From Lactiplantibacillus dongliensis (GTDB lineage Bacteria > Bacillota > Bacilli > Lactobacillales > Lactobacillaceae), in assembly GCF_005405105.1 (NCBI RefSeq), contig NZ_BJDK01000006.1, forward strand, positions 1 through 64,000: a stretch of 64,000 bases of DNA, written 5' to 3'. The position numbers and the translations under genes are program-made. Within the stretch, counting starts at the first letter, position 1. Each line of letters begins with the position of its first letter. The notes beneath the pieces are model-generated. The model was not told the origin of the DNA and did not search any database. It worked only from the letters and a program-made list of their open reading frames with translations. Below, one piece after another: positions 8,116 to 32,207 of this stretch.

Positions 8116-10965
8116 TTATTTGGCAGCCGCCATGCGCGCCCGGTCCCGTTCTAGTACCGGCTTCAAATACTGCCCGGTATAACTTTCAGGCACTGCCGCA
8201 ATGGCTTCGGGGGTCCCAGTTGCAATGACCGTTCCGCCACCAGCACCACCTTCTGGCCCTAAATCAATCAAATAATCGGCGGACTTCACAACATCTAAGT
8301 TATGTTCAATAATCAAAACGGTATTACCAGCATCGACTAAGCGTTCCAAAACGCCGATCAAGCGCCGAATATCTTCACTATGCAACCCAGTGGTGGGTTC
8401 ATCCAAAATATAGAAGTTCTTCCCTGACTGTTGCTTATGCAATTCAGAAGCCAGCTTCATCCGTTGCGCTTCCCCACCAGAAAGGGTCGTAGCCGGTTGG
8501 CCTAGCTTGACGTAACCCAAGCCAACATCCACTAAAGTTTGTAATTTTCGCCGAATCTTAGGAATCGGTTCAAAGAATTTCAAGGCTTCGGAAGCCGTCA
8601 TCTTTAAGACGTCCGCGATATTCTTGCCTTTATATTCAACTTCCAAGGTTTCAGAATTATATTGCTGACCATGACAGACTTCACACGGCACAAAAACATC
8701 TGGTAAGAAGTTCATTTCAATCTTCAAGATACCATCGCCATGGCAAGCTTCACAACGGCCGCCTTTGATGTTAAAGCTAAAGCGCCCCTTCTGATAGCCC
8801 CGTAGCTTGGCTTCATTGGTTTGGGCAAACAAGTCCCGAATATTGTCAAAGACGCCAGTATAGGTGGCTGGATTACTCCGGGGCGTACGCCCAATCGGAC
8901 TTTGGTCAATATTAACTAACCGTTCGATATTCTTAACACCACTGATGGACTTGTACTTCCCTGGTTTTTCAGAATTATTATTGAGCTTTTGCGCTAAAGC
9001 GCGTTTCAAAATATCGTTAACTAATGTTGACTTACCAGAACCAGAAACCCCTGTCACCACGACGAATTCACCTAATGGAAAATCAACGTCAATCTGCTTG
9101 AGGTTATTTTCAGCTGCCCCAGTAATCCGAATCTTTTTTCCATTACCTTGACGCCGCTCCGTGGGTACCGGAATAAACCGTTTGCCAGCTAAATACTGGC
9201 CAGTTAACGATTTGCGTGACCGGGCCACTTGCTTAGGCGTCCCGGCAGCCATAACTTCACCACCGTTTTCACCCGCACCAGGACCGATATCAATAATATA
9301 ATCAGCTGCCCGCATCGTATCTTCATCATGTTCAACGACAATCAGCGTATTCCCAAGGTCACGCATCTTCTTCAATGAGCTAATTAAGCGGTCATTATCA
9401 CGTTGATGCAACCCAATTGACGGTTCGTCCAAAATGTACAATACCCCAGATAAGTTCGACCCAATCTGTGTCGCTAACCGAATCCGTTGTGCTTCCCCAC
9501 CAGATAAGGTCCGAGCAGCTCGACTTAACGTTAAGTAAGCTAAGCCAACGTTTTGCAAGAACGTCAATCGGTCACGAATTTCTTTTAAGATTGGCTGGGC
9601 TATCACGAGGTCTTTTTCAGATAAAGTCAGCTTTTCAAAGAAGGCTAATTCATCACCAATCGCTTCATCAGAAACGGTCCCGATATGTTCACCGCCGACT
9701 TTAACGGCTAAAGCTTTGCGATTCAACCGGAAGCCATGGCAAGTCTGACATGTGAGTTCAGTCATGTATTTCCGCATCACATCCCGGGTAAAGTCACTGC
9801 TCGTTTCACGATAACGGCGGTCCACATTATTGATGACCCCTTCAAAGACGGCATCGACATCACGAACGCCGCCAAAATCATTTTGATAATGAAAATGGAA
9901 TTGTTTGCCGTCAGAACCGTATAAAACCGTCTGTTGGTCAACCTTGGATAAATCTTCAAATGGAACATCTAACGGAATATCTAATTGTTCACAAGCTTGC
10001 TTGAGCATTTCTGGATAGTATTGCGAACTAATTGGATTCCATGGTGCTAACGCGCCTTCAGCTAAGGTTAAGCTCTTATCTGGAACTACTAAGTCTTCAT
10101 CAACTTCCAACTTCATGCCGAGACCTTCACAGTCAGGACAAGCGCCTTGGGGGGCGTTGAATGAAAACAACCGTGGTTCTAGCTCACCAACTGTAAACCC
10201 ACAAACTGGGCAAGCATAGTGTTCGGAGAAAAGAATCGGGTCGCCGCCAATCACATCAGCAATTGCGTAACCGCCACTCAAACGTAAAGCGGCTTCAAAA
10301 GAATCGAATAACCGTGACCGGTCACCAGGTTTAACCACAATCCGGTCAATCACAATCTCAATCGTATGCTGTTGATTCTTGTTGAGGTCAAAGCTTTCAC
10401 CAATATCATGAATCTCGCCATCCACACGGACCCGGACGAACCCTTCACGCTTAATTTTTTCAAAAATCTTTTTGTGTTCACCTTTTTTTTGCCGCACAAT
10501 CGGTGATAAGATTTGTAACTTCGTCCGTTCCGGCAATTGTTGCACCCGGTCAACCATTTGTTCAACCGTCTGGCTGGCAATTGGCGTCCCATCATTGGGA
10601 CAAATCGGCTGGCCAACACGGGCCCACAACAAACGTAGATAATCATTGATTTCAGTCACCGTTCCGACCGTGGAACGCGGGTTCTTCGACGTTGTCTTTT
10701 GGTCAATCGAAATGGCCGGACTAAGCCCATCAATCGAATCAACATCAGGCTTTTGCATTTGGCCTAAGAATTGCCGAGCATAAGCTGACAAACTTTCAAC
10801 ATAACGCCGTTGCCCTTCCGCGTACAGCGTATCAAACGCCAACGAACTCTTGCCAGAACCGGACAAGCCGGTAATCACGACTAATTTATTACGGGGAATC
10901 GTGACATCAATATTTTTTAAGTTATGGGCGCGTGCGCCGTGAATGATAATTTTATCGTTCGCCAA
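8116..10965 (-). CDS. uvrA: Excinuclease ABC subunit A
   Basis: UvrA is the damage-sensing ATPase of nucleotide excision repair. The 949-residue protein has two ABC modules. The Walker A motifs are GLSGSGKSS near residue 35 and GVSGSGKST near residue 640, and LSGGEAQR appears twice. Paired Cys motifs (CPVCGF with CPDCEG, and CEACHG with CEVCHG) form two zinc modules. It lies 11 bases after uvrB in the same operon and should share the SOS-type promoter upstream of uvrB. Confidence 0.98.
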
Positions 10966-21177: not shown

Positions 21178-22035
21178 TTACCCCGCAACGTCATACTCTG
21201 TTTCTTTGATGCCAGTGTTCATGAAGTCATAGGGGCTCTTCATCTTATCGGGATCCCAACTCGCAATCCCGACCACCAGCAGAATTTCCAGAGAACTCAA
21301 GCTAACTGAATCGTTGAGTCGTTTTTCAAAAGCTGACTTAATCCGATTGGCCGCAATTTGAGCTCCGGGCGTATCAGAAAACAGTAAGATCGCCCAAGTC
21401 GGATTGTCTTGGTCCAACGAATACGTAATATCATTATCCCGTGTCGTCGCCGCAATTGTATCCGAAGTTAACCGCAAAAGGTCCGAAAACTGTTGATCAT
21501 TCATCATCCGTTTAATTTCATTAAAATAACGAATCCGAATAATGACCGTTGTCACCGGTAACTGGAACCGCCGATTGGTTTCAATAAAGACCTGCGCATC
21601 TTGGATGTATGCTACCGTCGTCCGTAGATCGGTTCGCTCATCAAACGCGCCCCGCTTCATGATGTCACCGCGTAACTTAGCATTCGATGCTTGTAATAAT
21701 GTTAGTCGCCGCGTCATCGCATAGAAAGTTGCTGACAATAATAACGGCATCACCAACCAAAAAATCATAATCATCGGAATCTCCGCGTGATGGGTCGAAT
21801 TGATATAAATCATGACCACGGCCTGCACAAAAATAAACAATAGATTCGCCGTTAAACCGGTAACCGCTCCAAAAAAGTAAGTCATCAAGATCATGACCAG
21901 CGTGAGCCCTAAATAAATCGTATTCAACGTTAAGTTCGCCGTCAAGGTCATTAAGATGGCCGTGACACTGAAGAGTGCGAGAAACAGCAACAAGTAGACA
22001 TCCGCTAAAACAGCCGACCGTTGATCATCACTCAT
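21178..22035 (-). CDS. Membrane protein with degenerate GGDEF domain, candidate c-di-GMP receptor
   Basis: 285 residues. Four or five membrane helices occupy residues 10-107, followed by a GGDEF-like domain. The active-site GGDEF is replaced by DQDNP (208-212), so diguanylate cyclase activity is not expected. RDND at 199-202 sits exactly where the allosteric RxxD I-site of GGDEF domains is found, six residues before the motif. That combination is known from PelD, a c-di-GMP receptor for Pel export. It is the last gene of the polysaccharide operon and its start overlaps the end of the BcsB-like gene by 8 bases. A receptor role is inferred, not shown. Confidence 0.75.
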   Translation of the reverse strand: MSDDQRSAVLADVYLLLFLALFSVTAILMTLTANLTLNTIYLGLTLVMILMTYFFGAVTGLTANLLFIFVQAVVMIYINSTHHAEIPMIMIFWLVMPLLLSATFYAMTRRLTLLQASNAKLRGDIMKRGAFDERTDLRTTVAYIQDAQVFIETNRRFQLPVTTVIIRIRYFNEIKRMMNDQQFSDLLRLTSDTIAATTRDNDITYSLDQDNPTWAILLFSDTPGAQIAANRIKSAFEKRLNDSVSLSSLEILLVVGIASWDPDKMKSPYDFMNTGIKETEYDVAG

Positions 22036-24232
22036 GGTGCCGCCCCCTTTGCGCCATTAAACCGTTTTTGCGTAGAATGAGAAATGCCGCTAACGCCATC
22101 ACCACGATCGCTGCCAAAGCAATCCCTAGATAGATTACCAATTGCGAATTACGCGTGATGACAGTCTTAATCGTCGTCCCGTCACCGACTGTTTTCTTCT
22201 TCTTAAATCGGTAGTCATAATGATGATTATCATGGTCAACCACAATCGCATCGCCCGTATATTGCTGAATATTACGTTGGAAATTAAGCTGCGTTGACGC
22301 TCGGTAAACATCAGCTGATTTACCCGCGGTCACCACTAGTAACCCAGAACGGACATTGTAAGGAGATCGTAGCAGTTGCGCCGTGCCAATATTTTGACCA
22401 TATTGGTGTTCAATACTTAGCTTTTCATTCGACACAAAGCCATGGCCACCCTTGCCATATTGAAAATACAATTTTTTATTCAATTGCTTAATAAACGCAT
22501 TTTGTTGTGGCGTCCCAAAGGCAATCACATTCTTGTTTTTTAAGACCGCCTTACTTGGCCGTTGTGTATAAAACTGCACATCCCCAGTATTACTCTGCGC
22601 ATAATTTCCAATCAAATTAAAAATATTAGTTAATGTCTGGTAATCATATTTAGTCAATACTTTGGGCCGAACAACCGCAAGCTGATTGAACGTATCGTTT
22701 TTTAAAAATAAGTTAGGATAATTCGTAAACAATAAATCACTGACCGGCTTCGACTTAATATAAGCTTTCGAGTCGGATTCAATCGTGGCCCAAGGTGTCT
22801 GTGTATTATCAGAACTCGACTGGTCATGCATCTCCAAATCAAAAGCGACTCGAATCGTAAAGCTATGTCCTAAAGCTTGACCCTTCGGTAACGTGACCGT
22901 CAGACTGTCATTATCAGCATGTGCTGCACTCAACTTCTTACTCCCCAACGGGCTCCCGTTGAGATAAACCGTAGCGAGTGCCCGCTTGAAGTTCAAGTTT
23001 TTAGCATACCGAAAATGTATCCGGATTTGAGACCCATCCGCATTTGTACGGTCAACGGGTAAGCTGACAAAATACGTACTTGATTGATGTTGCGCCCCGG
23101 TCAGGGTATCATCACGACTCGTCAACTGATAACTGCCATCATACTGTAATTCCGAAGTTTCAGTCCGCGCCTGGTCACCAATATATTCCGTATGCGCCCG
23201 CGTTTCTTGCATTAATTCCTGATTAGCAATAAACCGACTGGCTTTTTTCAAGCGATTAGCCGTTAGCGCGGTCACAATCAAATAATGCTTATGGCCCGTA
23301 TACATCGTCTTAATCACCGCTCGCTGCTTAAGCTTTGTCGCATCAATCACCCGCCGAAACCGGGCCGGTAAGTGCGCATAGATCGCCATCACTAATTGAT
23401 AGTCCCCTTGCTTAGCTGCCGTATTATCAAAAGTCGTCACCTGAATCTGTGAGCTTTCGGTCGTAATCGTTCGAGCTTCTCCCGACAACGCATACATCGC
23501 TGCCGTCAGTTCACCATTGCTAGCTTGCTTGGGGGTCGTAATATAAGAATTCTGATACGCAATCGTGTCAGTCCCTGAGAAGTGGGCATAAAATGACTTA
23601 ATTGCGTGCGTTGGCGGCTTTAACAAGTATTGAAAGTTCACATTAGCCCCATCATAAATCGTCAACCAATTAGCTGGTGTTTGCGCTAATTGTAACTTTC
23701 TAGACCCCGCTTGATTTAAAATCTGCCCGCTAATCTTTAATTGATTTTCACCTTGGACTAATCGCAATGGAACACTAATCGCCTTTGTTTGCAGACCGGT
23801 CCGCCGACTAGGTCGAAACGAATAAAACTTAGTCCCATTAAGTGACAACGTGATATCAGAAGTTGACCGTTGTGCTAATTGTGAAATCTGAAAATTCAAA
23901 TTCAAGGTTACTTTTTTCAGTTGCCAATAGTCCATTTTAATAAAGTACATATTGGCTTCAACCGACTTACCAGACAGCGTTGTCGTCGCATTTTGAAACG
24001 GCTGCGTATAGGACTTCAACTGACTCTTTTTAGATTTGGATTTAGCTTTACGCTTAGTTTTAGCTTTAAATTGCTTCGCCTGCGCAGTCGTTTTAGCTTG
24101 ACCCATCAGGCTAGGCATACTCAGCCCGCCACCGACCGCCATCAAAATAACCAATAAACTGATTAATAATCGCCAGTTACTGATACCGCTTGGTTTTATA
24201 CCATTTTGCTTGTTGATGAAAGACTTGCTCAC
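22028..24232 (-). CDS. BcsB-like polysaccharide synthase subunit
   Basis: A large exported protein of roughly 734 residues. An N-terminal hydrophobic segment (LLISLLVILMAVGGG) is followed by a Lys-rich stretch, long beta-rich extracellular domains and a C-terminal membrane helix (IYLGIALAAIVVMALAAFLI). This layout is that of BcsB, which guides nascent glucan and anchors to BcsA. The start is uncertain: the frame reaches 24253 and an ATG lies at 24238, but GGTGGGG is best spaced for the GTG at 24232. All choices overlap the end of the synthase gene by more than 50 bases. Confidence 0.75.
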   Translation of the reverse strand: MSKSFINKQNGIKPSGISNWRLLISLLVILMAVGGGLSMPSLMGQAKTTAQAKQFKAKTKRKAKSKSKKSQLKSYTQPFQNATTTLSGKSVEANMYFIKMDYWQLKKVTLNLNFQISQLAQRSTSDITLSLNGTKFYSFRPSRRTGLQTKAISVPLRLVQGENQLKISGQILNQAGSRKLQLAQTPANWLTIYDGANVNFQYLLKPPTHAIKSFYAHFSGTDTIAYQNSYITTPKQASNGELTAAMYALSGEARTITTESSQIQVTTFDNTAAKQGDYQLVMAIYAHLPARFRRVIDATKLKQRAVIKTMYTGHKHYLIVTALTANRLKKASRFIANQELMQETRAHTEYIGDQARTETSELQYDGSYQLTSRDDTLTGAQHQSSTYFVSLPVDRTNADGSQIRIHFRYAKNLNFKRALATVYLNGSPLGSKKLSAAHADNDSLTVTLPKGQALGHSFTIRVAFDLEMHDQSSSDNTQTPWATIESDSKAYIKSKPVSDLLFTNYPNLFLKNDTFNQLAVVRPKVLTKYDYQTLTNIFNLIGNYAQSNTGDVQFYTQRPSKAVLKNKNVIAFGTPQQNAFIKQLNKKLYFQYGKGGHGFVSNEKLSIEHQYGQNIGTAQLLRSPYNVRSGLLVVTAGKSADVYRASTQLNFQRNIQQYTGDAIVVDHDNHHYDYRFKKKKTVGDGTTIKTVITRNSQLVIYLGIALAAIVVMALAAFLILRKNGLMAQRGRHHE

Positions 24233-25430
24233 GAACATACCCCACCATTCCATGGGCTGCTACTGCTAACCACATCTGACTATAGACTAAGTACATAAAA
24301 ATAATAATCATTAAATTGGCGAACGTCATCTCGCCTTTTTCAGTGGTAATCGTCACAAATGTACTTATCACGAAAGTTAACACCGCCATCAACCATAACA
24401 CATTACTAAAACCCACTAAATCCGAATGGGCCACCCCGGCCACCGATAAGACAAACATTGTATCGGATAAAATAAGTGACGTCATTAATAAGAAATAAAT
24501 GGATAAAAAGTAAAGTAAGTCAAAGCGAATCGGGCGGCCAGATTTCGTAAACAGTAACCGCGAATTTTTTAAAATCACATAAATATTACCTTTAACCCAA
24601 CGTGTCCGCTGGTGAAACCAGACATCCAATGTCTGCGGTTCTTGTTCCCAAGTGACCGCTAACGGTTGAAAACGAATGCGATAGCCCATCCGGTAGACCC
24701 GAAAGCTAATTTCAGTATCTTCCGCTAAAGCTTTAACATCCCAACCGCCAATCTTTTCGAGAACATCCCGCCGAATGACGTAATTCGTGCCTGGAATTGT
24801 GCATAACTTAAATAACTTTTCGCGTCCCGCTTGCGCCATCCATTGAAAAGACAACGTTTCAATATTGATAAAGCGCGTCAACAACGACGCATTTTTATTC
24901 CGGGTTCGAAACTTGCCGATTACGGCTGCTAATCGATCATCGCCCATTAATTCAGCCACTAACAACCGCAATGCACTTGCTTGCGGCGTGTTATCAGCAT
25001 CATAGATTGAGATCAATGACCCTTTTGCTTGCCGTAAACCGATATTTAAGGCATTCGATTTGCCCTTGCCACCAGTTTTTTTATCCGTATTGATGACCGT
25101 TAAGTTACGTTTTGGATACAAGGTTTGCATCCGCGACAACAACACTGCGGAATTATCATCAGAATTATCGTTAATCACAATAATCTCGTAACGGTCATGC
25201 GGATAATCGAAATTCAACAACGACTGCAACGTTTTAACAATCACGATGCCTTCATTGTGCGCCGGCACCATGATCGTCACAAACGGTACTTCTGCTGGCA
25301 ACTGTGGCTCAGGGCGCCGAGCTTTTTGCAAATAATTTACATAGCCGGCAATCGTCAGAATGACATTTACGACTAAGATCCCCCAGATTGCCAGAATTGC
25401 AACGAATAAGAACCAATCTAAAACTGTGAT
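24177..25430 (-). CDS. BcsA-like processive GT2 polysaccharide synthase
   Basis: The GT2 core shows VPAHNEG, VINDNSDDNS, the DxD in YDADN, ED in LAEDTEIS and QRTRW, the full set of processive beta-glycosyltransferases, followed by four membrane helices. There is no C-terminal PilZ domain. The first ordinary start in frame is TTG at 25331, but 33 more codons upstream encode a perfect membrane helix (VLDWFLFVAILAIWGILVV). They begin at ATC (25428-25430), seven bases after AAAGGGGG, where family members would have ATG. I therefore start at 25430 and regard ATC as the probable initiation codon. Product: likely a beta-linked exopolysaccharide. Confidence 0.85.
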   Translation of the reverse strand: MTVLDWFLFVAILAIWGILVVNVILTIAGYVNYLQKARRPEPQLPAEVPFVTIMVPAHNEGIVIVKTLQSLLNFDYPHDRYEIIVINDNSDDNSAVLLSRMQTLYPKRNLTVINTDKKTGGKGKSNALNIGLRQAKGSLISIYDADNTPQASALRLLVAELMGDDRLAAVIGKFRTRNKNASLLTRFINIETLSFQWMAQAGREKLFKLCTIPGTNYVIRRDVLEKIGGWDVKALAEDTEISFRVYRMGYRIRFQPLAVTWEQEPQTLDVWFHQRTRWVKGNIYVILKNSRLLFTKSGRPIRFDLLYFLSIYFLLMTSLILSDTMFVLSVAGVAHSDLVGFSNVLWLMAVLTFVISTFVTITTEKGEMTFANLMIIIFMYLVYSQMWLAVAAHGMVGYVREQVFHQQAKWYKTKRYQ

Positions 25431-25458: not shown

Positions 25459-27036
25459 TTAACGCTTAAACATGTTCAGATACAGGCGCCGTCCTAAGAC
25501 AATAAACAACACGAAGACGATAAACGTGATACTGAAAAAGGCTAATAAAACCGTCCCTTGCGTTTTGAAGAACCGGTTTACCCAAGTCGTTTCCATCTTT
25601 ACTGCAGCCAACTTTTTAGGCTGCGGCTGTGTATCGGTAATCGTCGTTGCCTGACCGTTCAAAAAATACGTCCCGTGTTGATAGCCAAATGAGACCGTAC
25701 CGCTGGTGATCTTAGTCGGTGTGCCTTGAGTAGCGGGATTAAACCAGCGATAATTCAGCCGATCCAGCCGGCACATCAAATTCTGCAGACTACGCTGACT
25801 GTTGGGCATCGTAAACGTCACAGCCGTGGGAATTGGAAAATCAGTGGCCACTTTACCAAGCGTTGAACCCTGTGTCACCGTTTCCAGCGAAGCGGCATCC
25901 AAACCATAAAAACTTTGTTTAAAAGTCGTCGCGGTATTATCTTGCTTGGCATAGACCGGACTAGCCGGATTGGGCAACCACAACAAGTGGTCAGCTTTTT
26001 TAAGAGCATTTTGACGATAAATCACATCTTGATTCCAATAAGCTGACGCACTAATCCCAACTGGGTAGACTTGATTCTGCGCGAACTGAATCAGCTCATT
26101 ATCGATCAACGTCGAGAGTCCTGGACCACTACTCGTTGTGACCCCACCAACTGCTGGCATCTTTAAGAACACCACGCCGCCACGATTCTCGACTAATCTC
26201 AAAACCCGGGCGAAGCGTTGAAACGCTTTAAAGTGCGCATGATTACCAACCGTAGTCGTACTAATAGCAAACGGGATGCCACGCTGGTACAACTTGAGGC
26301 TCAACCGCTCTAAAACGGCCATGTTCGTATAAGGCGTGACCTTCGTAATCGTGAGTAATGGCTGGTAATGCCCCGCCTGACTAAATAATGTGGCGATTGT
26401 TTGCGCCGCGAGCACAAAACTATAGCCACCAGTTGACAAGTAAGGCAGATAGCCTTGCTTCCCGACAATCGTGCCATATGGATAACGACGCTGATCAGCT
26501 GATTGTGACTTTAAATAACCAATCGTTTGCGCTTTAGCCGGTAATTGGGTTAGCGCCACCATCGTTTCACTGAACGCTAACAATTGATGCAAATACCCAT
26601 TTTTATTTTGTAGCGTAAATTGCTGTTGATAAAGATTGGCACGTTTCGCGTGTAGTCCCGCTGCCTCATCAGCAGTCAGCCTGGGACCAATGTGCAACTT
26701 CATCCCGTTAAACCGGCGGCGGTCCCGTACAAATGCTGTATTATTCAGATCTGTTTGCGCCCAATTAATCATCGTGATGACCCCTTGATAGTGCCGTAAA
26801 CTGCCCGCCTGATAATCTGCAGCAACTTCGGTCTTAACCCGGACTTGTATCCCGGTTAAAATCCGCTGCACCGCTGCCACTTTCCGTTGATCTTGCTGCG
26901 CCACATTTTGTGAATCATAAACTAATAAGACTTTTGGCGTGGTCACTTTGGCTTGCACCGGCAACTGCCATAACCAACCGCCAATTAGCAGGCCACTTAT
27001 TAACCAACTGACCACGCGCCACCATTTAACTGTCAT
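25459..27036 (-). CDS. DUF2334-like exported membrane-anchored protein of the EPS operon
   Basis: 525 residues with an N-terminal signal sequence (WLISGLLIGGWLW, cut near VQA) and a C-terminal membrane helix ending in a basic tail, so most of the protein is outside the cell. The segment ITKVTPYTNMAVLERLS followed by GIPFAIS resembles the start of DUF2334, a family related to polysaccharide deacetylases, but the usual acidic residue before the V is Lys here. A deacetylase or glycan-binding role is possible. Overlaps the gene before it by 4 bases (ATGA). Confidence 0.6.
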   Translation of the reverse strand: MTVKWWRVVSWLISGLLIGGWLWQLPVQAKVTTPKVLLVYDSQNVAQQDQRKVAAVQRILTGIQVRVKTEVAADYQAGSLRHYQGVITMINWAQTDLNNTAFVRDRRRFNGMKLHIGPRLTADEAAGLHAKRANLYQQQFTLQNKNGYLHQLLAFSETMVALTQLPAKAQTIGYLKSQSADQRRYPYGTIVGKQGYLPYLSTGGYSFVLAAQTIATLFSQAGHYQPLLTITKVTPYTNMAVLERLSLKLYQRGIPFAISTTTVGNHAHFKAFQRFARVLRLVENRGGVVFLKMPAVGGVTTSSGPGLSTLIDNELIQFAQNQVYPVGISASAYWNQDVIYRQNALKKADHLLWLPNPASPVYAKQDNTATTFKQSFYGLDAASLETVTQGSTLGKVATDFPIPTAVTFTMPNSQRSLQNLMCRLDRLNYRWFNPATQGTPTKITSGTVSFGYQHGTYFLNGQATTITDTQPQPKKLAAVKMETTWVNRFFKTQGTVLLAFFSITFIVFVLFIVLGRRLYLNMFKR

Positions 27037-28532
27037 TCAGTGGTCGTCCCTTCTCGATAGGCATGCCACAAGCGATGGTTCAAAATATCTGAAATAAATA
27101 ATAAGAATGTTAAATCCAAGCTCACCGGTACCATAAAGATATGCTTAGCCAAATCCGCATCGCCATCACCAACAATTGAGATGATGGGGACAAAGATAAA
27201 GATTGTCATGAGCCCTAAGACCAAGCAGAATCGAAGAACTCCTTCGATTTCATGCTGGCGCAAATCGTTATACATCCCGACAGCATAAACCATCACAAAC
27301 GCGACAGCCAACAAACAATTAAAGGCAAATTTTTGCGGGAAGAAGGCCCCGGCGATCGCACTATACCCCGTAAAAAACGTCACTTGTTGTCCCGGGGAGG
27401 CTCCGGAAGCCTTAGTGTAGTCCCCAACTGCCTTAGTCTGTGTAATCATGACATCAGCAGCTGTTAAGTCCATCAGCTTGCCAAATTGTTTCAAGTGACC
27501 CATGTAATACTTCACAATCCAGACAAAGTTATACTTCGGTAACAAATTCTTCTCCACATAGCTTTGTGGTGGCTGAATCGCTGCGAACTGCTTGGCATAG
27601 TAATCTTGATCCTTCATCAGGGCATATTGCTCATCGATTCCATTTGTGGCAATTGCTTTGCTCGGATCACCAGTCTGGGTTAACACCCCATGTGAAAAGG
27701 CTTGATATTGATTGATACTCGTAAAGTTCTTCCCAATCAACGTGTAAGTCAAACCACCCGTGATTAGTAAAATCCCGATGCCAGCAAACAGGTACAATCG
27801 TTGCGCTTTAAAATGCGGTAAAAATAGCAATCCAAGCGCCACCACCGTGTAGCTTAAGGCTAGTGGTGCATTTTGCGATTTACTGGAAATCAGCAATAAT
27901 GTACTCAACATAAAGACGAGTAACAACGGCCAACGCCGCCGATACCGTTGCCGCGCCAACAACATGATTGACGAGAACGAATATAAGGTCATACTCAACA
28001 TCTGCGGTTCCGCGAAAAATGAATTGAAATACAACGTAAATGACGAATCCCCAAAAACAAAGACCACTAAGCCCGCAATCAGATAGTTACGCCAACGCTT
28101 CGATGGAAACGTCAACGCATCAGTCAGGAGATAAATACTACCGAGATACAGCCCATAATTGACTAAACCCATAAAGCGGATATCAAAAACCGTCCGACTA
28201 TAAAACAATTTATTTAACCCAACCGCTAAGCGGACAAAGATTGGTTGGGACGAGAACGTTACAGAACGATACTCATTGTAGTATTTCATCAATCCAAAAT
28301 GCTGGGTCACATAACCAAAGTAGTTATAGTGCGTTCCTAATAGCTTGTAAATACCATTACTGTACATCGCCCGATAAAAGTCCCCATTATCGGCTAACCC
28401 ATTAATCGGCGGGATAAAAATTAAATAACCTGCTAATCCCGCACAGATCAGCATCGCCAACAACGGTGGTGGCATTAGTTTTTGAAAAACTCGCGCCACT
28501 TGTCCAAATCGTTGCTTTAAAATCGCCATCAT
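27033..28532 (-). CDS. Polytopic membrane protein of the EPS operon (possible GT-C type)
   Basis: 499 residues with roughly ten to twelve membrane helices. A large external loop after helix 1 contains LADNGDFYRAMYSNG, an acidic motif of the sort found in the first loop of GT-C glycosyltransferases. A second long loop (about residues 270-350) precedes the C-terminal helices. I do not recognise a named family. Its position between the GH8 lipoprotein and the synthase suggests decoration or handling of the polymer. Confidence 0.6.
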   Translation of the reverse strand: MMAILKQRFGQVARVFQKLMPPPLLAMLICAGLAGYLIFIPPINGLADNGDFYRAMYSNGIYKLLGTHYNYFGYVTQHFGLMKYYNEYRSVTFSSQPIFVRLAVGLNKLFYSRTVFDIRFMGLVNYGLYLGSIYLLTDALTFPSKRWRNYLIAGLVVFVFGDSSFTLYFNSFFAEPQMLSMTLYSFSSIMLLARQRYRRRWPLLLVFMLSTLLLISSKSQNAPLALSYTVVALGLLFLPHFKAQRLYLFAGIGILLITGGLTYTLIGKNFTSINQYQAFSHGVLTQTGDPSKAIATNGIDEQYALMKDQDYYAKQFAAIQPPQSYVEKNLLPKYNFVWIVKYYMGHLKQFGKLMDLTAADVMITQTKAVGDYTKASGASPGQQVTFFTGYSAIAGAFFPQKFAFNCLLAVAFVMVYAVGMYNDLRQHEIEGVLRFCLVLGLMTIFIFVPIISIVGDGDADLAKHIFMVPVSLDLTFLLFISDILNHRLWHAYREGTTTE

Positions 28533-28548
28533 TTGTCACACCTTAATC

Positions 28549-29679
28549 TCACTTATAAGCCGCATTCAGCGCCGTCAGATTATTGTACGAATAAGCCTGG
28601 TAAGTCGTTGCATCTCCAATACCACCAACAATTGCGGACTGCTTGGCCGTGACCTGCAGCCGCCAAACGGCCTGCATGGCTCGTTGATAATTTTTTTGAT
28701 CATGCACCGCCGCAAAAATCATCGCCGCTAACGCGTAATTACCAGCAGATTCGCCCTTCACACTAACGGTTCCAGTAGTCGTATAGCCATTAGCCAAGTT
28801 ATGTTGCACTAGGCGTTGGCTTAACCAGCGCCGACTCGTGGCCTTTAACTGCCCCATCTCCGCCAAATGTAACAAGGTCTCGAGCGCTTCCGACGTATTC
28901 AAGTTGGCGCTGCTATATTTACTAGTCGTCCATTGATAGCTAGCCGCATACAAGGGAAAAACATCGCCCAAGTAGCCGCTCTTAACGACGGTTAATTGCT
29001 TTTGGTACGCCGCACGTCCCTTTTTAGAACCTTGTTCAAAGTAGTGTAACGTCTTTAAATCAAAATACGCCAAACTCCCCGTCGTGGTCGCCTTTTTGGT
29101 TTGCATATCATAATAGTTCACCAAATGCCCCTGCTTCAGGCTCGTATTAACCAGCGTCTGATAACGTTGCGTTGCTTCATGTCGATACGTGGTCCGATGA
29201 TGCATTTGATCATACGCTAAAAGGGCGCGGATGAGTCGCAAATCATCAAGCGTCGCATTAACGCGGTACCGTTTTTTAGTTCGTGGATCATACCGATAGC
29301 TGAACTGACCATGATCATCAAACGTCTTTTTAGTCGCCTGATAGAATGTTCGAAATTGAGCCCATTGATGCGTAGTCGCCAAATACTGCAACCACATCCC
29401 CGATGATTCACTCAATAATTCATGACCAGTCGCTGCTCCGGTGGTCCGCTGCTTGGTATCAACATAATTGGTATACAGCCCTTGCTTGGTTAGCAACCCT
29501 TGTCTGATAAAGGTTGCGACCTGTTGACCATGCTGATGATCAGCCGTGGTCGCCAGTCGGCTAGGCGTGGCAAATGCCGTGGGCTCTTGAGTTGGCGTTT
29601 TAACAGTGACTTGTTTTTGACAGCCGCTTAAACCGAATAGAACCGGTACAAGTAGCCAAGTTAACCATTGCCAACGCAT
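28549..29679 (-). CDS. GH8-like glycosidase lipoprotein (BcsZ/PssZ-type)
   Basis: 376 residues with a lipoprotein signal whose lipobox is LSGC (C20). Downstream, LLSESSGMWLQYL and ATLDDLRLIRALL correspond to the glutamate and aspartate regions of glycoside hydrolase family 8. Such enzymes are encoded with bacterial cellulose-type synthases (BcsZ) and with the Listeria Pss exopolysaccharide, where they trim the polymer. It starts 20 bases after the nox stop, with no terminator between, and 16 bases before the next gene. Confidence 0.72.
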   Translation of the reverse strand: MRWQWLTWLLVPVLFGLSGCQKQVTVKTPTQEPTAFATPSRLATTADHQHGQQVATFIRQGLLTKQGLYTNYVDTKQRTTGAATGHELLSESSGMWLQYLATTHQWAQFRTFYQATKKTFDDHGQFSYRYDPRTKKRYRVNATLDDLRLIRALLAYDQMHHRTTYRHEATQRYQTLVNTSLKQGHLVNYYDMQTKKATTTGSLAYFDLKTLHYFEQGSKKGRAAYQKQLTVVKSGYLGDVFPLYAASYQWTTSKYSSANLNTSEALETLLHLAEMGQLKATSRRWLSQRLVQHNLANGYTTTGTVSVKGESAGNYALAAMIFAAVHDQKNYQRAMQAVWRLQVTAKQSAIVGGIGDATTYQAYSYNNLTALNAAYK

Positions 29680-31142: not shown

Positions 31143-31523
31143 TGATGAATCCGTAAATAATTCGCTTTGCCTAACTGTCTCAAGATAAGGTTAGTCGTCA
31201 GTTAGACCTGCGTACTGCCGTGACCAACCATCAGCTAATCGCCACTGATTCAAAAGTGAAGTTCCTGTACACTTTAAAATATAAAAAAATAAATATCGTG
31301 TCACTTTCATTATACGTTAATTACCAGTCACTGGGTGTTTTTTCAATAAAATTCACCACACAACTTTCCAACAGCCCGCTAAAAAATAGTGACACTGATG
31401 ATTCAGGACCGTAACCACTTTAAAAATTTTAAGGCTTAATCATTCCGCTTATGCGCAATTTAGGTTACTATGGTAGTTAGGGGTATTTTTCGTACACACA
31501 ATCTAAACATGAGGGGCCAGTCT
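31143..31523. other. Divergent control region between nox and the EAL gene
   Basis: About 380 bases of AT-rich DNA without a convincing gene. Visible symmetries are CTAACTG/CAGTTAG (31171-31205), the palindrome CCAGTCACTGG near 31331 and GTGTCACT/AGTGACAC about 90 bases apart near 31299 and 31388. These are candidate operators for coordinated control of the polysaccharide operon and the phosphodiesterase. No promoter pair fits consensus well enough to assign. Confidence 0.45.
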
Positions 31524-32207
31524 ATGTATCGCTATTTTATTCAGCCACAATTAGATAAGTTCAATAATTCATTAATTGGCTATGAGATGTTAATTCGTTA
31601 TCGTGCTACAGAAGAAGATCGTTGGACCTTGCCTGATAATTTTGAAGCCATTCCCATCGATGTTCAAATTGATTTACTAAAAGCCACTGCCAGCGAACTT
31701 TCACTGAAGATTGGCTCGGTTTCGATTAACTTTAACCGCAAGCAATTCTTAAATCCAGAAATTACCGCTGCCGTTATCGAAGCTCAAACTAAGCTATTCC
31801 CGACTAAGGTCATTGTCGAAGTTACTGAAGAACCTGGGGAAGATAACTACGCGTTAGCCGATATGCAAAAACAAATTGAGCTCATTAAATCACACGGGTT
31901 ACAATTCAGCTTGGATGACGTTGGTACTGGGATTAACGTCTATGATCATATCAAGCCACTATTGGGTTATGCTGAAGAAATCAAATTCGCCATGCAAAAC
32001 TTCCGCAACGAAGAACGGGCCGATGAAATTCCCAGCCAACTCAAATTCTGGCGCGACGTTGCTGAAAAGTATGACATGCGACTTATCCTTGAAGGCGTCG
32101 AGAATGATGAAGAAGATCAACTCGCTGATGATCTTGAAATTCCGCTGCGTCAAGGCTATTACTATGGGAAGCCACATCTATTCAAACTCAAAGCTGATCA
32201 CCAATAA
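31524..32207 (+). CDS. Stand-alone EAL-domain c-di-GMP phosphodiesterase
   Basis: 227 residues, essentially one EAL domain with no sensor. EAL appears as EML (E21), and the other catalytic positions are present: N69 in SINF, E99 in VEVTE, D131-D132 in LDDVGTG, K154 in EIKF, E190 in LEGVE and Q210 in RQGYYYGKP. The enzyme is therefore predicted active in hydrolysing c-di-GMP to pGpG. The frame extends to 31470, but GAGGGG nine bases upstream favours the ATG at 31524. Divergent from the operon with the BcsA-like synthase and the degenerate GGDEF protein. Confidence 0.88.
   Translation: MYRYFIQPQLDKFNNSLIGYEMLIRYRATEEDRWTLPDNFEAIPIDVQIDLLKATASELSLKIGSVSINFNRKQFLNPEITAAVIEAQTKLFPTKVIVEVTEEPGEDNYALADMQKQIELIKSHGLQFSLDDVGTGINVYDHIKPLLGYAEEIKFAMQNFRNEERADEIPSQLKFWRDVAEKYDMRLILEGVENDEEDQLADDLEIPLRQGYYYGKPHLFKLKADHQ

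Follow-up and report, generated by a model that had tools for sequence, protein, structure and literature searches.

The window, a stretch of 64,000 nucleotides from contig NZ_BJDK01000006.1 of Lactiplantibacillus dongliensis, contains a series of minus-strand genes which encode, from downstream to upstream, the 285-residue protein P0001, a BcsB-type subunit, a GT2 synthase, a 525-aa protein, a 499-aa WsfD-type protein and a 376-aa lipoprotein-like protein (Table 1). The plus strand opposite the P0001 gene is interrupted by many stops. The true start of the pssD-like gene is uncertain because its open reading frame overlaps the gene upstream, and the 525-aa protein matches no family in Pfam at E 1 or in NCBIfam at E 0.01. 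An identical P0001 protein is encoded in NZ_BJDL01000012.1, where the DNA ahead of the GT2 gene is slightly different. A search for riboswitch control found no Rfam family at gathering score anywhere in the window. Past an NADH-oxidase-like gene, a divergent gene encodes an EAL protein that is a probable c-di-GMP phosphodiesterase, the catalytic residues of which appear preserved by eye.

Table 1. Coordinates of the genes and protein features at the locus, with the evidence for each
Feature	Position in the window	Strand	Evidence
pssE-like gene (P0001), membrane protein with degenerate GGDEF domain, proposed c-di-GMP receptor	21178..22035	-	ORF reading, Pfam, AlphaFold2 model, comparison with Listeria-type copy
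N-terminal membrane part, residues 1-108: helices 3-31, 35-55 and 57-82 plus start of long helix 88-130	21712..22035	-	AlphaFold2 model
Degenerate GGDEF-fold domain, residues 132-281	21193..21642	-	Pfam 132-272; VIA-align to 3ign
I-site RDND, residues 199-202 (R199, D202)	21430..21441	-	Translation, alignment
DQDNP, residues 208-212, at the place of GG(D/E)EF	21400..21414	-	Translation, alignment
R231, candidate second I-site arginine, 32 residues past R199	21343..21345	-	Alignment, conservation; PelD comparison
R156, opposite an arginine of WspR in HMMER alignment	21568..21570	-	HMMER alignment, conservation
pssD-like gene, BcsB-type subunit, 741-aa ORF	22028..24253	-	Pfam BcsB E 2.9e-34; 33% identity to Listeria-type copy
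pssC-like gene, processive GT2 synthase without PilZ; apparent ATC start at 25430 behind AAAGGGGGAAG	24177..25430	-	66% identity to Listeria-type copy
pssB-like gene, 525 aa	25459..27036	-	23% identity, E 4e-30 to Listeria-type copy
pssA-like gene, 499 aa, NCBIfam WsfD hexose transferase	27033..28532	-	496.6 bits vs cut-off 80; 37% identity to Listeria-type copy
Lipoprotein-like gene, 376 aa, relative of the protein at the place of glycosidase Lmo1913	28549..29679	-	E 1.4e-11 to L242:5595-6662; lipobox by eye
EAL protein, 245 aa, divergent, past the NADH-oxidase-like gene	31470..32207	+	Pfam EAL E 2.5e-19

The active-site motif of P0001 is dead, with DQDNP standing where active diguanylate cyclases have GG(D/E)EF. 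Five residues separate RDND from DQDNP, which is the spacing of RxxD to GG(D/E)EF in cyclases, and the RxxD of P0001 falls on that of WspR in an HMMER alignment. Translation, spacing and alignment thus uphold the first-pass annotation, which had read RDND at 199-202 and DQDNP at 208-212 in cyclase register, a register that is no product of chance, though the gene lies on the minus strand. In the same alignment, R156 is opposite an arginine that we take to be R198 of the WspR I-site, and R167 sits at the place of what is presumably a metal-binding Asp of WspR. R231 we assume to be equivalent to PleD R390. Pfam recognizes a GGDEF domain at residues 132-272 (E 5.6e-5) with 23.4 bits, slightly below the curated cut-off of 23.8; NCBIfam offers no useful family name, its top match being DgcS with 25.5 bits against a cut-off of 400. 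An AlphaFold2 model built from 43 sequences, with a mean pLDDT of 89.9, predicts three helices (3-31, 35-55 and 57-82), which from their hydrophobicity are probably transmembrane, followed by the long helix 88-130 and then by a GGDEF fold. With VIA-align, this model was matched to c-di-GMP-bound GGDEF domains with Z scores in the range 20-22, such as 3ign (Z 21.8, rmsd 2.2 over 156 residues) and 5euh (Z 21.0), a likeness of predicted fold that does not in itself prove function.

Since the first-pass annotation had proposed that the BcsA-like synthase of this locus lacks PilZ, we note that Pfam finds no PilZ domain in the GT2 partner, which agrees. PilZ is present in 3 of the 19 sequences of the GT2 alignment (A3), in which three long synthases (two from locus L133 and one from L138) were included as contrasts. 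The GT2 partner scores 93.9 bits with the TIGR03030 CelA model against a cut-off of 699.1 and has no PilZ domain, and is thus not classified as a BcsA; nor is it classified as a PgaC/IcaA poly-N-acetylglucosamine (PNAG) synthase, the NCBIfam score being 174 bits against a cut-off of 422.3.

A close parallel to this gene set is known in Listeria, where pssA-E correspond to lmo0527-0531, PssC being a GT2 protein and PssD related to BcsB (Chen et al. 2014, PMC4125290). As reported there, PssE (Lmo0531) has 208-DKDDA in place of GGDEF and an RxxD five residues before it, and its residues 107-285 bind c-di-GMP with a Kd of 0.79 uM at about two c-di-GMP per protein. Deletion of pssE or pssC in a high-c-di-GMP strain abolished clumping and reduced Congo red binding, and its authors, who themselves compared Pss with Pel, called PssE essential to the polymer (PMC4125290). 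The same report describes a dgcA-dgcB-lmo1913-pdeC cluster, in which Lmo1913, assigned as a six-hairpin glycosidase, sits amid c-di-GMP enzymes (PMC4125290). Among the genomes that we sampled, G262 encodes a copy of 285 aa in which residue 208 begins precisely the motif DKDDA. At another place in G262, genes for two GGDEF proteins, one protein of 356 aa and an EAL protein follow one another, matching dgcA-dgcB-lmo1913-pdeC. On the strength of these two features, we took G262 as a Listeria-type genome.

P0001 and the Listeria-type copy are equal in length and 31% identical over 277 residues, with DQDNP and DKDDA both at 208. The operon order is kept: the order g499-g525-GT2-BcsB-PssE is common to the window and to the Listeria-type locus L165, with all five genes matched (identities in Table 1). 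P0001 therefore resembles PssE in having a degenerate motif at 208, an RxxD five residues before it, and a place as last gene after a PilZ-less GT2 gene and a BcsB-like gene. The likeness extends further, in that the window also encodes a relative of the protein that takes the place of glycosidase Lmo1913. In G262, however, this relative lies by the cyclases, whereas it adjoins the pss genes on the same strand in 25 of 31 Lactobacillaceae loci. A further difference is that the host of P0001 is a lactic acid bacterium which has, in addition, two PilZ-bearing BcsA-like synthases. By sequence comparison, the window operon is a Pss-type operon with a presumed glycosidase adjoining. P0001 is very probably the Lactiplantibacillus counterpart of PssE, i.e., a membrane-anchored GGDEF domain protein that would be unable to make c-di-GMP, would bind it instead, and would thereby switch on a PssC-PssD synthase. 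The view taken when the locus was first annotated, that the pairing of a degenerate GGDEF receptor with a PilZ-less synthase would be unusual, finds no support: this arrangement has been in print since 2014 for Listeria pssA-E (PMC4125290), and P0001 adds a member to it.

How widespread is this protein? A PssE-like match, in a few cases a fragment, is present in 84 of 397 sampled Lactobacillaceae genomes, and in 30 of the 151 genomes of a smaller Lactobacillaceae sample. The literature searched, mainly open-licence papers, contained no report of PssE in Lactobacillaceae, which is weak evidence of absence, and the open-licence literature searched described neither this distribution nor I-site loss in a protein that is itself retained. 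Synteny was scored as four pss genes upstream of the sensor, on the sensor's strand and inside the fetched locus. It was found in 28 of 31 Lactobacillaceae loci, 18 of 19 loci from other Lactobacillales and 2 of 10 from other Bacillota. The three Lactobacillaceae exceptions are L126, which meets a contig end, L131, which falls out by the overlap threshold only (its BcsB gene is present), and L138, where the genes are absent from the 18.8 kb fetched. A receptor known from one pathogen is now placed in harmless food and plant bacteria, in which its switch could be studied with safety.

We compared the I-site between genomes with and without canonical cyclases. Where such cyclases are present, 88 of 97 copies have it intact; where they are absent, 0 of 17 do, a contrast in which I-site loss without cyclases reflects only two or three independent events. 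This count covers 8 of the 19 f8/g47 (Listeria-type) genomes (11 left out), scores the broken ORF of G1078 as a loss, and leaves out fragments (G415, G1140, G984 and G969), the partial additional copy of G1106 and the named loci L048-L055. The nine copies without an I-site despite cyclases are seven from a single clade (genus code g21), that of G338, and the G1078 broken ORF, which was dropped from the erosion ranking and the tree. The 17 cyclase-less copies come from 16 genomes, 15 of which are without a GGDEF match at E 0.001 or better; in the sixteenth, G017 (87% complete), there is a single weak GGDEF match (E 6.5e-6), presumably the PssE-like protein itself.

The tree does not bear out the idea that the cyclase-less genomes are many independent cases. 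It requires only three changes of cyclase status and four of I-site status, and nine of the ten f3 copies join six g23 copies from small genomes in one starred branch, although this tree was a quick one and its branches are long. The tenth f3 copy joins G338. An independent-pairs or sign test on cyclase vs I-site loss has no power here and cannot reach 0.05. Because of the shared branch, the prediction made beforehand, which was borne out in the I-site count, is partly tied to the f3 copies.

In the reference set of 88 copies, which excludes eight distant ones, R199 is conserved in 92% of copies and D202 in 94%, with residues 208-212 variable; the GG(D/E)EF motif is lost in all 60 aligned PssE-like copies. 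When 46 conserved positions were ranked by erosion in the cyclase-less set, the most eroded eight were 129, 156, 199, 201, 202, 224, 231 and 268, which include R156, R199, N201, D202 and R231. R199, D202 and R231 had been tracked before this ranking; R156 was tied to the I-site only afterwards, from the HMMER alignment with WspR. In the f3 copies from cyclase-less genomes, R156 remains in 6 of 10 and R231 in 2 of 10. Other positions are almost wholly kept in cyclase-less genomes (e.g., W93, L137, R138, Y205, T213 and Y281-V283), and the model of the I-site-less copy of G441 (pLDDT 87.5) shows helices and strands in unchanged order.

The genome of the window has eight canonical GGEEF domains, none of which has RxxD at the I-site offset; a tenth GGDEF match, a weak one (C14, 22.9 bits, 677-aa frame), is outside this count. 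Three results say that the I-site of P0001 is likely to be more than inherited background: the lack of RxxD in these canonical domains, the conservation of R199 and D202, and the retention vs loss of the site by cyclase status. The proposal that a dead GGDEF domain with an intact I-site may serve as the c-di-GMP receptor of the PilZ-less, cellulose-synthase-like complex is well supported by homology and synteny with PssE, by the conserved I-site and by its loss where cyclases are missing.

We then asked which known receptors P0001 resembles. PelD likewise combines membrane helices with a degenerate GGDEF domain, the RxxD and a later arginine of which bind c-di-GMP, switching on a synthase; binding needs R367, D370 and R402 (PMC2170427, PMC8461298). 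R402 lies 35 residues past R367; in P0001, the conserved R231, a candidate for such a further arginine, lies 32 past R199. PelD differs in having a GAF domain ahead of its GGDEF domain and in being a member of the Pel machine, whereas P0001 has GT2 and BcsB-like partners. P0001 itself is not a PelD: a single unbroken helix (88-130) runs between the membrane part and the GGDEF domain, leaving no room for a GAF domain, and Pfam finds none; where PelD is encoded with pelE, pelF and pelG, the five genes upstream of P0001 either hit WsfD, GT2 and BcsB models in Pfam and NCBIfam or hit no model there. The first-pass label of a PelD-type sensor fits a proposed PelD-like mode of action but not identity with PelD. 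PelD was not among the 50 matches listed by Foldseek or by VIA-align, an absence that excludes nothing. BcsE, with its GIL domain, is another degenerate GGDEF protein with RxxD on a Bcs-type machine, that of enterobacterial cellulose secretion, but it is cytosolic, has REC and RecA-like ATPase-fold parts, and works alongside a PilZ-bearing BcsA (PMC7439463). P0001 has no BcsE-type Pfam match. In the gts operon of Lactobacillus acidophilus, which He et al. 2018 liken to Pss, the receptor encoded with a GT2 gene is again a degenerate c-di-GMP-turnover protein, PdeB, but with a degenerate EAL domain where P0001 has a degenerate GGDEF domain (PMC6123363).

On the reading that P0001 is a receptor, c-di-GMP most likely binds R199xxD202, with R231 and R156 helping to complete the site, probably as an intercalated dimer. 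The ligand would alter the cytoplasmic domain, and the signal would pass along the long helix 88-130 and through the membrane helices to switch on the PssC(GT2)-PssD(BcsB) synthase, which would make and export what is presumably an exopolysaccharide. P0001 would do for PssC-PssD what the PilZ gate does in BcsA. Weighing against this reading are an identity to PssE of only 31%, the nine copies that lack RxxD despite cyclases, the few changes on the tree, and the persistence of R156 and R231 in some cyclase-less copies. It is very unlikely that the synthase instead senses c-di-GMP itself, leaving the GGDEF protein with another role. Such PilZ-less, c-di-GMP-activated synthases have been published, i.e., PgaC/PgaD (via PMC4125290) and BgsA (PMC5567048), and PgaC/IcaA is the top NCBIfam score of the GT2 partner. 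However, in alignment this partner stops far short of the PilZ tail of the long synthases and has no additional domain, and the receptor shown in Listeria is PssE (PMC4125290). Least probable of all is that P0001 is a remnant or weak diguanylate cyclase, or a binder of a different nucleotide. The GGDEF fold is predicted to be intact and the sequence leaves room for other ligands, but the loss of GG(D/E)EF from P0001 and from every aligned copy speaks against catalysis, as does R167 at the presumed metal-binding position.

A more serious contender, though one that we consider rather doubtful, is that PssE-like proteins are mainly obligate structural subunits of the synthase, in which c-di-GMP binding would be secondary and dispensable and the GGDEF-fold domain would dock the complex, ligand-free where c-di-GMP is absent. 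The survival of protein and operon without canonical cyclases, with positions outside the I-site almost wholly kept, is what such a subunit would predict, and so is the preserved helix and strand order in the I-site-less G441 model. These same observations suggest a second, structural role in the synthase. On the other hand, a purely structural subunit leaves the retention of the I-site in genomes with cyclases unexplained, and this explanation complements the receptor reading more than it opposes it. We see about an even chance that the two combine in a device of two layers, in which the synthase subunit is obligate and its c-di-GMP switch detachable. Subunit and synthase would have been kept in lineages without cyclases as the I-site decayed (R199 and D202 being lost from all copies seen, R231 and R156 from the majority), leaving a Pss polymer that is independent of c-di-GMP. 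If this is true, comparing both forms would part the assembly role of a GGDEF receptor from its sensing role. What a degenerate GGDEF receptor contributes beyond c-di-GMP binding could be tested on the copies that naturally lack the I-site.

The rest of the c-di-GMP network of this genome includes seven EAL proteins, one of them that encoded past the NADH-oxidase-like gene, and two PilZ proteins whose alignment marks them as GT2 synthases (frames of 683 and 663 aa). Because of these two PilZ synthases, c-di-GMP probably has further targets, and one Lactiplantibacillus genome unites two PilZ synthases with one PssE-type synthase. In the cyclases of this genome (L001-L008), product inhibition via the I-site seems to be absent, given their lack of RxxD.

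Several loci depart from the common arrangement. At L138 (G086), a PssE relative without its usual partners in the fetched 18.8 kb lies upstream of a BcsA-like synthase of 664 aa, the tail of which is PilZ-like. At L152 (G472 contig 15) there is a second, lone PssE-like copy, with no pss gene in the fetched locus and its I-site lost, in a genome without GGDEF matches. In eight of the ten distant Bacillota loci (L155-L162), the PssE-like gene precedes the GT2 gene and the I-site is kept. Weak phylum-level matches, below about 60 bits, were set aside; they resemble ordinary GGDEF proteins, with long frames and a match confined to the domain. In Lactiplantibacillus plantarum EGD-AQ4 (L055, 9790-10411), the pss genes are missing between two remnants flanked by NADH oxidase and TrxB genes. 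The remnants are in different frames: a match to residues 1-87 of the 376-aa gene (9790-10047) meets one to residues 156-284 of the PssE-like gene (10025-10411), in what looks like a deletion scar. Fragments are also found in G984 and G969.

Finally, we examined the start of the pssC-like gene. In the window, no ATG, GTG or TTG lies upstream in the open frame of the apparent ATC start (25430, minus strand, behind AAAGGGGGAAG), and the alternative program-called start, TTG at 25331, would remove the first membrane helix. Among 29 Lactobacillaceae loci, the aligned start codon is ATT in nine, ATC in six, ATG in six, TTG in five and GTG in three, two loci without the gene not being counted. In 20 nearer loci outside Lactobacillaceae, it is ATG in 19 and TTG in one, and 8 distant loci were not comparable. 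The 15 of 29 loci with an apparent ATT or ATC start are the window, L117, L119, L122-L125, L127-L129, L168-L171 and L173. Non-canonical AUU/AUC initiation of the pssC-like gene thus appears to be recurrent in Lactobacillaceae, as judged from aligned start codons.
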